Origin: Burkholderia singularis
Lineage (GTDB): Bacteria > Pseudomonadota > Gammaproteobacteria > Burkholderiales > Burkholderiaceae
Direction of reading: 5' to 3'
DNA length: 64,000 nucleotides
NCBI RefSeq assembly: GCF_900176645.1
Contig: NZ_FXAN01000083.1
Location: 62,001 to 126,000 of the forward strand
The position numbers and the translations under genes were made by a program. Below the pieces are notes generated by a model, which worked only from the letters and a program-made list of their open reading frames with translations, searched no databases and was not told the DNA's origin. Below, one piece after another: positions 22,114 through 62,245 of this stretch. Every line of letters begins with the position of its first letter. Position 1 is the stretch's first letter.

Positions 22114-23094
22114 ATGACCGATTCCGACGCCAACGCCCCGCTACCCGAACCTTTCGCGTGTGCCCGCTTCATCAAGGAGATCGGGCGCGGCCCCAACGGC
22201 GCCCGCCCGCTGCCCTTCGACGACGCGCTCGCCCTTTACCGCGCGATACTGGACGGCCACGTGTCGGACGTCGAACTCGGCGCGGTCCTGATCGCTTATC
22301 GGCTCAAAGGCGAAACGCCTGCCGAGCTGGCGGCGATGCTCGCCGCCGCGCACGCGTCGTTCGAGCCGCTGCACGTGCAGGACGGCGTCTTCCGCCCGGT
22401 ATCGATCCCGAGCTATAACGGCGCGCGCAAGCAGCCGAACCTCGTACCGCTTCTCGCGCTGTTGCTCGCGCGCGAGGGCGTGCCCGTGCTCGTGCACGGC
22501 GTCGCCGACGATCCGGGCCGCGTGACGAGCGCGGAAATCTTCAACGAACTGTCGATCCCGCCCGGCAGCACGCACGACGAGATCGAGGATACGCTCGCCG
22601 AGCGCCGCGTCGCCTTCGCGCCGATCGGCGTGCTCGCGCCGAAGCTCGCGCGCCTGATCGCGCTACGCCGCGTGCTGGGCGTGCGCAATTCGACGCACAC
22701 GATCGTCAAGCTGCTGCAGCCGTTCGAACCGGCTGGGCTACGCCTCGTCAACTACACCCACCCGCCGTACCGTGACAGCCTCATCGAACTGTTTCGCAAC
22801 CATCCGCCGGCAGCCGCCGGCGGCGCGCTGCTCGCTCGCGGCACCGAAGGCGAGGCGGTCGCCGACACGCGCCGCCAGGTGCAGATCGACTGGCTGCATG
22901 ACGGACTGTGCGAGACGGTCGTCGAGCCGGTACGCTCGTCACCCGATGCGCCGCCCGCCGAGTTGCCCGAATCGCGCGACGCGGCCACGACAGCCGCCTG
23001 GACCGATGCCGTCATGCGCGGCGAAATCCCGGTGCCGATCACGATCGCCACGCAGGTCGAGACGATCGTGCGGCTCGCGCGAATCGTCGAATAA
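22114..23094 (+). CDS. ybiB: YbiB/TrpD2-type DNA-binding protein (anthranilate phosphoribosyltransferase fold)
   Basis: A 326-residue protein with the N-terminal helical and C-terminal alpha/beta domains of the nucleoside-phosphorylase-like TrpD family (LPFDDALALYRAILDGHVSD, then ELGAVLIAYRLKGETPAELAA). The PRPP-binding motif of true TrpD is not conserved: the expected glycine-rich loop reads VPVLVHGVADDPGR. E. coli YbiB is a DNA/RNA-binding protein of the SOS regulon, and the enzymatic role is considered lost. No SOS box is obvious upstream here. Confidence 0.85.
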   Translation: MTDSDANAPLPEPFACARFIKEIGRGPNGARPLPFDDALALYRAILDGHVSDVELGAVLIAYRLKGETPAELAAMLAAAHASFEPLHVQDGVFRPVSIPSYNGARKQPNLVPLLALLLAREGVPVLVHGVADDPGRVTSAEIFNELSIPPGSTHDEIEDTLAERRVAFAPIGVLAPKLARLIALRRVLGVRNSTHTIVKLLQPFEPAGLRLVNYTHPPYRDSLIELFRNHPPAAAGGALLARGTEGEAVADTRRQVQIDWLHDGLCETVVEPVRSSPDAPPAELPESRDAATTAAWTDAVMRGEIPVPITIATQVETIVRLARIVE

Positions 23095-23133: not shown

Positions 23134-23163
23134 TTGACAGCCCCCGCGAACTTCGCATAGAGT
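23134..23163 (+). promoter_or_regulatory. Candidate sigma-70 promoter of the leuA leader
   Basis: A perfect -35 TTGACA (23134-23139) stands 18 nt from TAGAGT (23158-23163). Transcription would start near 23169-23171, at or next to the ATG of the leader peptide, which implies a leaderless leader ORF. Confidence 0.55.
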
Positions 23164-23170
23164 TGTCGCC

Positions 23171-23245
23171 ATGCGTTCCTATCAGAACACCCTCCGAATT
23201 ACTTCCGGCCGCCTAGCGCGGCCGCTATCGCTACGACTAGCGTAA
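23171..23245 (+). CDS. leuL: Leucine-rich leader peptide upstream of leuA (putative attenuator peptide)
   Basis: A 24-codon reading frame: Met-Arg-Ser-Tyr-Gln-Asn-Thr-Leu-Arg-Ile-Thr-Ser-Gly-Arg, then Leu-Ala-Arg-Pro-Leu-Ser-Leu-Arg-Leu-Ala, stop TAA. The four leucines in the last ten codons (23213, 23225, 23231, 23237) are all CTA, a codon hardly used in this genome. That is how a ribosome-stalling attenuator peptide is built. It lies 235 nt before leuA. By analogy with known leu leaders, scarce charged tRNA-Leu would stall ribosomes here and allow leuA transcription. No purine-rich ribosome site precedes it, consistent with a leaderless message. Confidence 0.75.
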   Translation: MRSYQNTLRITSGRLARPLSLRLA

Positions 23246-23255
23246 AGCTGTCGTG

Positions 23256-23321
23256 GCGCCGTGCCGCACCGGCGCGGTCCCGCCCTTAGCAGTTCCCGCA
23301 GTTTCCTTCTCGCTGTTTTTT
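23256..23321 (+). promoter_or_regulatory. Candidate attenuator region between leader peptide and leuA
   Basis: A 6-bp GC stem (GCGCCG 23256-23261 with CGGCGC 23270-23275) lies 11 nt past the leader stop. A run of six T (23316-23321) lies 40 nt further. I could not derive a single clear terminator/antiterminator pair by eye, so the exact fold is open. Confidence 0.4.
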
Positions 23322-23332
23322 ACAACCCATAG

Positions 23333-25120
<1,788 letters not shown>

Positions 25121-60637: not shown

Positions 60638-62245
60638 TTACTCGACCGTCGGCGGCTGCTCGAACGTGTGGAACGGAGCCGGGCTCGGGATCGTCCATTC
60701 GAGGCCCGTCGCGCCATCCCACGGCTTGTCACTTGCTTTCTCCAGTTCGCCGCCACCGCGGTAGGCGGGCAGCACGACCGCGAACAGGAAGTACACCTGC
60801 GCGAGGCCGAAGCCGAACGCGCCGATCGTCGCCACCTGGTTGAAGTCGGTGAACTGCGCCGCATAGTCCGCATAACGGCGCGGCATGCCGGCGAGGCCCA
60901 GGAAGTGCATCGGGAAGAACGTGACGTTGAAGAAAATCATCGACGCCCAGAAATGGATCTTGCCGCGCGTTTCGTTGTACATCCAGCCGGTCCACTTCGG
61001 CGACCAGTAATACCAGCCGGCGAACAGCGCGAACAGCGAACCCGCGACGAGCACGTAATGGAAGTGCGCGACGACAAAATACGTGCCGTGATACTGGATA
61101 TCGAGCGGTGCCATCGCGAGCATCAGGCCCGTCAGGCCGCCGAACGTGAACACGAACAGGAAGCCGATCGCGAACAGCATCGGGGTTTCGAACGTCATCG
61201 AACCGCGCCACATCGTCGCGAGCCAATTGAACACCTTCACGCCCGTCGGCACCGCGATCAGCATCGTCGCGTACATGAAGAAGAGCTGGCCCGTGACCGG
61301 CATGCCGGTCGCGAACATGTGGTGCGCCCAGACCATAAACGACAGGATCGCGATCGACGCCGTCGCGTACACCATCGAGCTATAGCCGAACAGCGGCTTG
61401 CGCGCGAACGCCGGGATCACCTGCGACACGATCCCGAACGCCGGCAGAATCATGATGTACACCTCGGGGTGGCCGAAGAACCAGAAGATGTGCTGGTACA
61501 TCACCGGATCGCCGCCGCCCGCCGCATTGAAGAACGACGTGCCGAAATGGCGGTCGAACAGCACCATCGTGATCGCGCCGGCCAGAACCGGCATCACGGC
61601 GATCAGCAGGTACGCGGTGATGAGCCAGGTCCACGCGAACATCGGCATCTTCATCAGCGTCATGCCCGGCGCGCGCATGTTCAGGATCGTCACGATGATG
61701 TTGATCGAGCCCATGATCGACGACGCGCCCATGATGTGCACCGCGAAGATCGCGAAGTCCATGCCCGGGCCCATCTGCGTCGACAGCGGCGCGTACAGCG
61801 TCCAGCCGGCGGCCGTCGCGCCGCCCGGCGCGAAGAACGAGCCGACGAGCAGCACCGCCGCGACCGGCAGCAGCCAGAAGCTGAAGTTGTTCATCCGCGC
61901 GAACGCCATGTCGGATGCACCGATTTGCAGCGGAATCATCCAGTTCGCGAAGCCGACGAACGCCGGCATGATCGCGCCGAACACCATGATCAGGCCGTGC
62001 ATCGTCGTGAGTTCGTTGAAGAACTCCGGACGCATGATCTGCAACCCCGGCTCGAACAACTCGGCGCGGATGCCGAGCGCCATCACGCCGCCCGACAGGA
62101 ACATGATGAACGAGAACAACAGGTACAGCGTACCGATGTCCTTATGGTTGGTGGCATACAGCCACCGCCGCCAGCCGTGCGGCGTTTCGTGCGCGTGGTC
62201 GTCGTGCGCGTGGCCCGCGGTTACGTCGTGCCCGATGCTAGACAT
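60638..62245 (-). CDS. ctaD: Cytochrome c oxidase (aa3) subunit I
   Basis: A 535-residue catalytic subunit with about twelve helices. CuB/haem ligands are in FWFFGHPEVYIMILPAFG (His-Tyr cross-link site), WAHHMFATGM, and HGTYFVVAHFHYVL (haem a3 and a ligands); the first haem a His is in TTMHGLIM. It reduces O2 to water and pumps protons. It lies 43 nt downstream of ctaC. Confidence 0.97.
   Translation of the reverse strand: MSSIGHDVTAGHAHDDHAHETPHGWRRWLYATNHKDIGTLYLLFSFIMFLSGGVMALGIRAELFEPGLQIMRPEFFNELTTMHGLIMVFGAIMPAFVGFANWMIPLQIGASDMAFARMNNFSFWLLPVAAVLLVGSFFAPGGATAAGWTLYAPLSTQMGPGMDFAIFAVHIMGASSIMGSINIIVTILNMRAPGMTLMKMPMFAWTWLITAYLLIAVMPVLAGAITMVLFDRHFGTSFFNAAGGGDPVMYQHIFWFFGHPEVYIMILPAFGIVSQVIPAFARKPLFGYSSMVYATASIAILSFMVWAHHMFATGMPVTGQLFFMYATMLIAVPTGVKVFNWLATMWRGSMTFETPMLFAIGFLFVFTFGGLTGLMLAMAPLDIQYHGTYFVVAHFHYVLVAGSLFALFAGWYYWSPKWTGWMYNETRGKIHFWASMIFFNVTFFPMHFLGLAGMPRRYADYAAQFTDFNQVATIGAFGFGLAQVYFLFAVVLPAYRGGGELEKASDKPWDGATGLEWTIPSPAPFHTFEQPPTVE

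Follow-up and report, generated by a model that had tools for sequence, protein, structure and literature searches.

A probable leucine-sensing leader peptide on a predicted leaderless transcript ahead of leuA in Burkholderia singularis and its relatives

The window, by which we mean the whole 64,000-nt stretch of DNA analyzed here, covers positions 62001–126000 of contig C95 in the 5.54 Mb draft genome. It contains leuA, the closest named relatives of which are for the most part from Burkholderia, together with the neighboring gene ybiB and a number of smaller elements that are collected in Table 1. The leuA start at 23480 is preceded by CGAGGTCACG. Upstream of this start the reading frame stays open as far as an ATG at 23390, so automatic annotation may begin leuA 30 codons early; of the two starts, 23480 is the one with the better ribosome site and the one that agrees with the relatives. 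PF00682 (HMGL-like) genes are also found elsewhere in the genome, with five matches in total and the top one on contig C106. As this contig also bears an acetolactate synthase over the family cut-off, the genome is likely to have another leuA, placed in an ilv cluster.

Table 1. Features of the leuA upstream region and adjacent genes (window coordinates).
Feature	Position	Strand	Description and basis
ybiB	22114-23094		Neighboring gene; NF006005
Promoter TTGACA-N18-TAGAGT	23134-23163	+	Consensus scan; same geometry at 95/110 loci; transcript predicted to start at the ATG or one base upstream
Leader peptide ORF	23171-23245	+	24 codons + TAA, MRSYQNTLRITSGRLARPLSLRLA; sequence, codon usage, conservation
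Hairpin H1	23206-23224	+	Within the ORF, CTA codon in loop; fold, pair counts on 15 sequences
Hairpin H2	23229-23258	+	5' arm 23229-23237 in last CTA codons, 3' arm 23250-23258 past stop; fold, pair counts
Hairpin H3	23259-23277	+	GC-rich, immediately 3' of H2; fold, pair counts
Candidate Rho loading site	23278-23329	+	C-rich, G-poor, T run 23316-23321 inside; C minus G in top 0.7-1.2% of window positions, both strands
Hairpin H4	23339-23371	+	Behind conserved AGTCGTC; hairpin of -5 kcal/mol or better in 40/40 group members, no control run
leuA	23480-25120	+	2-isopropylmalate synthase (TIGR00970 type), regulated gene; NCBIfam match over cut-off, relatives

A reading of the DNA made from its letters alone (the sequence-only reading) had picked out a 24-codon ORF before leuA as a leucine leader peptide. 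The ORF is indeed present, 234 nt from leuA, and its leucine codons are as described: four lie within the last ten codons (15, 19, 21, and 23) and are all CTA, while the remaining one, codon 8, is CTC. The claimed rarity of CTA also holds, with 23 of 1663 leucine codons (1.4%) across 39 window ORFs that were selected by a composition rule. When all six frames of the window are searched for ten-codon stretches with four CTA codons, only two are found, which overlap and span 23210–23242. Clustered control codons in a short ORF before the matching biosynthetic gene, the usual mark of an attenuator, are thus seen at this locus.

The promoter boxes are TTGACA at 23134–23139 and TAGAGT at 23158–23163, with an 18-nt spacer between them, and the consensus promoter scan found this one promoter compared with 0.2 expected in shuffles. 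The leader ATG comes 7 nt after TAGAGT, which makes its A the eighth base past the −10 box. The distance of a transcript start from the −10 box is set by the usual promoter geometry, and the spacing seen here therefore predicts a 5′ UTR of 0–1 nt, in agreement with the earlier proposal of a start at or next to the ATG. Equally in line with that proposal, no Shine-Dalgarno-like sequence was seen by eye before the leader ATG, neither in 23134–23170 nor in the relatives. The arrangement is rare: a search of the entire 5.54 Mb genome for TTGACA-N16..18-TANNNT-N5..8-ATG gave two hits, one of them the site described here, and the reversed pattern gave one. In B. cenocepacia a minority of mRNAs are established as leaderless (PMC4603805), and in Cupriavidus leaderless mRNAs make up 4.67% of primary start sites (PMC7563307). 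Transcription start sites of B. cenocepacia have been published, and leuA is not mentioned in the main text of that paper (PMC4603805) or in the main text of a study of small RNAs in B. thailandensis (PMC4035088).

In order to assess the conservation of this plan we scanned 110 leuA loci (80 named and 30 more) for TTGACA, a spacer of 16–19 nt, TANNNT, a gap of 4–10 nt, an ATG, and an ORF of 15–60 codons with at least three CTA codons. A search of relatives for the ORF had been put forward as a check on the sequence-only reading, and the same plan was found at 95 of the 110 loci, with 46 distinct ORFs among them; many of the 95 loci are closely related and some genomes are possibly counted twice. 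The leader is present at all 89 Burkholderia-group loci and at all six Collimonas/Glaciimonas loci, with none excluded by the CTA requirement, and the genera represented are Burkholderia, Paraburkholderia, Caballeronia, Trinickia, Collimonas, and Glaciimonas. The 15 loci failing the scan (L061–L064, L069, L072–L081) are labeled Cupriavidus, Ralstonia, or Burkholderiaceae. A spacer of 18 nt is shared by 94 of the 95 loci, the remaining one having 17 nt; the −10 box and the ATG are separated by 7 nt at 67 loci, by 6 nt at 27, and by 9 nt at a single locus. The bases in the gap vary between genera and its length is kept. This geometry, fixed across genera although the gap bases change, supports a leaderless start, and we regard such a start of the leader ORF as very likely.

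The CTA codons are likewise kept in the relatives, as the sequence-only reading would have it. In the 40 distinct Burkholderia-group leaders, CTA is found at −2, −4, and −6 from the stop codon without exception, and at −10 in 38 of them, the other two having it at −9. Neighboring degenerate codons vary: the arginine codon at −3 is CGT in 20, CGA in 18, and CGC in one, plus AGT in one, and the alanine codon at −1 is GCG in 31 and GCC in 9. The leucine codon at −17 is CTC in 34 or CTT in three, and never CTA. Pairing does not hold the CTA at −10, as this codon is in the H1 loop; that it is nevertheless fixed while its degenerate neighbors vary points to selection on the codon itself. Selection on the CTA codons is thus supported by the comparison of sequences. 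For the peptide as a whole selection was not evident: of the single-base codon differences between pairs of 24-codon leaders, 629 were silent and 861 changing. Collimonas and Glaciimonas carry CTA-rich peptides at the same place that are quite unlike the Burkholderia-group peptide.

A wider set of 54 loci consisted of 26 from 25 genomes chosen to cover genera and 28 new ones, the latter taken from the top matches by score in 200 genomes drawn across the order. As the genomes were hand-chosen and the best-scoring matches taken, these loci are not a random sample. Four of them (L148–L151) were dropped before the count. The pattern TTGACN-N16..19-TANNNT-N5..8-ATG followed by a Leu-rich ORF was found at 17 of the remaining 50 loci; control windows taken from these loci had it in 5 of 1654 cases. 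The other 33 loci failed this leaderless rule. The peptides at L126–L128 and L152 are plainly Burkholderia-type, that at L159 is Collimonas-type, and the others diverge more. The matches include five more family groups of the order, namely f8 (to which L159 belongs), f22, f26, f35, and f37. Near misses at L131, L134, L137, L142, and L165, which resemble the leader by eye, were not counted. Before an ilvI-type gene (L114), a search for a leader ORF of 12–50 codons, the last 16 of which include seven Leu/Ile/Val, gave none.

Folding of the window leader gave a z-score of −3.80 relative to shuffles, and the hairpins H1, H2, and H3 recur in tandem in the Burkholderia group. On 15 hand-picked sequences, 94.8% of the cells in H1–H3 are paired, and four pairs, with nine cells, are changed on both sides. 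The paired percentage, cells, and covariation score were matched by none of 500 shuffles, the number of two-sided pairs by 14, and the number of pair types by 107. When the partners were shifted by −2 columns, two-sided changes were still seen at four pairs and seven cells, yet just 46.3% of the cells paired. As the structure tested is the window's own fold, a choice that favors it, we take the pair counts as support for the predicted hairpins, not as proof. Further folding, ribosome masking, and the terminator and H4 counts were based on an alignment set for which a CTA-rich core was required; it covers 79 of the 89 loci in the Burkholderia group, among which 74 are distinct, and was reduced from these to 40. 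The set leaves out ten reverse-strand loci (L093, L096, L098–L102, L107, L108, and L110), at all of which the leader is present.

Further downstream, AGTCGTC and H4 (23329–23371) are kept throughout the Burkholderia group. A long-range pairing between the last CTA codons and AGTCGTC, which appeared in a 230-nt fold of the window, was rejected, because it is broken in the Paraburkholderia rows of the alignment by a change from CGA to CGT that leaves H2 in place. The Rfam covariance models (4227 families) gave two matches below their gathering scores (E 0.2 and 0.26), neither of which is a leader family. The enterobacterial leu leader is presumably among these families.

Taken together, we consider it highly probable, as judged from sequence comparison, that the region is a functional leucine-sensing leader of leuA. 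Of the leu attenuation by a leaderless leader that the sequence-only reading had described, the Leu leader peptide, the selected CTA codons, and, by its fixed geometry, the predicted leaderless start stand; the GC stem and T run as a classical terminator do not. A classical ribosome-mediated attenuator would end transcription at an intrinsic terminator, placed either at the six T of 23316–23321 or at a hairpin at about 23402–23445. The latter was seen in the window with −18.1 kcal/mol in the folding test, followed by TTGTCTTC, and is a weak terminator candidate. A consensus scan detected no terminator-like site at the T run, just a 5-pair stem at 23427–23441. H3 ends at 23277, which leaves 38 nt between it and the T run, and terminator-like sites between leader and leuA are at chance level, with 8 of 40 group members (window included) compared with 34 of 150 random 300-nt windows. 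They were seen at none of the six Collimonas/Glaciimonas loci and at 5 of the 17 wider loci. These counts come from a detector that undercounts, having missed the clear terminator at L146, presumably in the same way in tests and controls. Among the alignment rows listed, the six-T run is absent from Paraburkholderia and Trinickia, and T runs occur in some Caballeronia (L047, L053). We rejected the T run as a conserved intrinsic terminator on account of the 38-nt separation and the chance-level sites.

The search for alternative terminator and antiterminator forms by folding, another check that had been proposed, gave no conserved terminator either. No consistent antiterminator appeared in the 40 sequences when a ribosome was masked on the CTA codons, and masking and folding from the stop codon gave a weak, inconsistent extension of H3. 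Textbook terminators do follow a leaderless Leu-rich leader at two loci from small genomes, L146 and L147 (CCTCGGCA...TGCCGAGG plus a T run, by eye), and these speak for intrinsic termination. For the leader in the window we regard a classical attenuator as unlikely.

What recurs behind H3 is a C-rich, G-poor stretch (Table 1). Of 65 named loci that carry the leader, 60 have this stretch in their top 5% by position, and 45 are below 0.05 when compared with random places of equal span. Two results speak against Rho. The C excess is modest beyond the Burkholderia group, with 4 of 16 below 0.05, and ribosome masking leaves access to the stretch nearly the same: its mean unpaired fraction over the 40 sequences is 0.55 when free, compared with 0.53–0.54 with a ribosome stalled on the later CTA codons. 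A recurring stretch of this kind past H3 would suit Rho, which we name as the terminator tentatively, with slightly less than even confidence. Given the C-rich stretch in the Burkholderia group, the modest C excess outside it, and the terminators at L146 and L147, it seems that lineages share the leaderless Leu leader but vary in the device used for shut-off.

The reading that we favor, and hold to be fairly probable, is that a leucine-sensing, leaderless leader peptide controls leuA and that the transcript is cut short, most likely by Rho. The first transcribed base would be the A of the leader ATG or its immediate upstream neighbor, and with the start at or next to the ATG the ribosome would load on the 5′ end of the transcript and translate the leaderless ORF without a Shine-Dalgarno sequence. 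With plentiful leucine, the ribosome would pass the four CTA codons and depart at the stop codon. H1–H3 would then form, the C-rich stretch behind them would stay open, and the transcript would end before leuA, most likely by the action of Rho. With charged tRNA-Leu for CUA in short supply, the ribosome would be expected to stall on CTA codons 19–23 and hold H2 open, and more transcripts would get to leuA, this direction of control being a prediction.

The leader could also act on the leuA mRNA itself, through its translation or its stability and not through termination; this has been proposed for the Actinobacterial LEU element. That element combines a leader ORF bearing a leucine run with a pseudoknot, in the base stem of which the Leu codons are paired to the Shine-Dalgarno box of leuA, and codon mutations in the leader of Streptomyces coelicolor did not fit classical attenuation (PMC1262725). 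The window leader resembles it in having an ORF with leucine codons upstream of leuA and no obvious terminator, and a pseudoknot leader of similar style stands before leuA in other genera. It differs in that the test applied found no outer arms of a pseudoknot in the window, for which reason a structure of the LEU-element type was rejected here, and in that exact complementarity between the leader and the leuA ribosome site extends to 5 nt at most. Moreover, masked folding predicted nearly constant access to the leuA ribosome site whatever the ribosome position. We therefore judge an effect on translation or stability to be distinctly unlikely.

The pseudoknot leader of other genera is a second type of leader, found up to 320 nt upstream of leuA at L066–L068, L077, L080, L153, L160, L020, and others. 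Its ORF often ends ...LPIGCRA or similar, and a GUGGC/GCCAC pseudoknot is interleaved with GGUUGCC/GGCAACC-type arms that co-vary between lineages. In a pattern test, 32 of 131 upstream regions had this leader, compared with 6 of 131 reversed ones. This second leader resembles the Actinobacterial LEU element. At Cupriavidus-type loci (L061, L069, L074–L080), TTCCTCGCT, which lies just before the Leu codons of the second leader, complements AGCGAGGAA at the leuA ribosome site (several loci, by eye), and this complementarity would suit translational control.

Returning to the leaderless leader and the proposed termination by Rho, its predicted start is the next point at which another explanation could apply. 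If transcription began several bases upstream, or from another promoter, the ORF would not be truly leaderless. The gap of 6–7 nt in 94 of 95 loci despite differing gap bases, and the excess of the leaderless pattern at wider loci over control windows, leave this a small chance.

The leader RNA or peptide might also be mainly trans-acting, in the manner of Sinorhizobium rnTrpL and peTrpL. The S. meliloti rnTrpL transcript begins with the trpL leader ATG and acts in trans (PMC7298713), which agrees with the statement of the sequence-only reading that leaderless trpL leader peptides are known in rhizobia. The window leader, also from a proteobacterium, is like it in the predicted start of the transcript with the leader ATG; S. 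meliloti trpL differs in that it responds to tryptophan, is an attenuator with a terminator, and has products known to act in trans. The stable hairpins and short conserved unpaired stretches of the window leader would be compatible with trans action, but its peptide is under no strong constraint beyond the Leu codons and paired bases, as seen from the silent and changing differences given above, and we give mainly trans action a slight chance. That the ORF is a functionless chance product, as short ORFs commonly are in GC-rich DNA, is contradicted by its conservation with fixed CTA codons, by the sole such CTA cluster in 64 kb, and by the hairpin pair changes, and is practically negligible.

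The leucine-sensing, leaderless leader proposed here can be compared with several known systems. The leu leader of Salmonella and E. coli has a Shine-Dalgarno-led ORF and an intrinsic terminator, and in these features, as well as in its hairpins, it differs from the window leader. The two are alike in using the rare CUA as control codons, and in Salmonella the change of the control codon CUA to CUG lowered sensitivity (as told in PMC1183508). Campylobacter jejuni LeuL, a 28-aa leader before leuABCD, similarly has rare Leu codons at its C-terminal end (PMC3847290, PMC11955535). It was identified via its ribosome binding site and is thus not leaderless, and it belongs to another class of bacteria. 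LeuL1 of Streptomyces lividans, located before leuA, is a leaderless Leu-rich leader that lacks a typical Rho-independent terminator (PMC8079986), a description that the window leader shares in all these respects, its leaderless start being predicted. Unlike the window leader, LeuL1 has 15 codons with four adjacent leucines, MRFGLLLLSCRGEGL, shows no likeness in peptide sequence, and comes from an Actinobacterium. The Streptomyces leaderless leuA leader is a closer precedent than rhizobial trpL. Among the titles and passages seen in a search of openly accessible papers, we found no description of such a leuA leader in beta-proteobacteria.

The occurrence of the leader across these genera and family groups suggests that a type of control best described in Actinobacteria is probably common in beta-proteobacteria. 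The regulatory logic would be ordinary, the start unusual, the taxonomic range broad, and the mechanism unfinished. As a naturally occurring system, the leader would lend itself to studies of the reason for which a regulatory ORF became tied in evolution to the first transcribed base, and of the way in which a ribosome loaded at the 5′ end governs termination without an intrinsic terminator. A more speculative and, to us, rather doubtful extension is that the leader represents a class of leucine switches over several beta-proteobacterial families, in which every leuA transcript would start with the first codon of a Leu-codon peptide and one nucleotide would serve transcription initiation, translation initiation, and leucine sensing together, with shut-off in most lineages by Rho and not by an intrinsic terminator, an aborted three-hairpin RNA that may act in trans like rnTrpL, and a tandem pseudoknot leader in several lineages.

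Both types of leader, in tandem, are seen in Collimonas and Glaciimonas. At L142, L143, L171, and L177, a second CTA-containing ORF near leuA crosses the leuA start codon, with its stop at +4 or +7, which suggests translational coupling.
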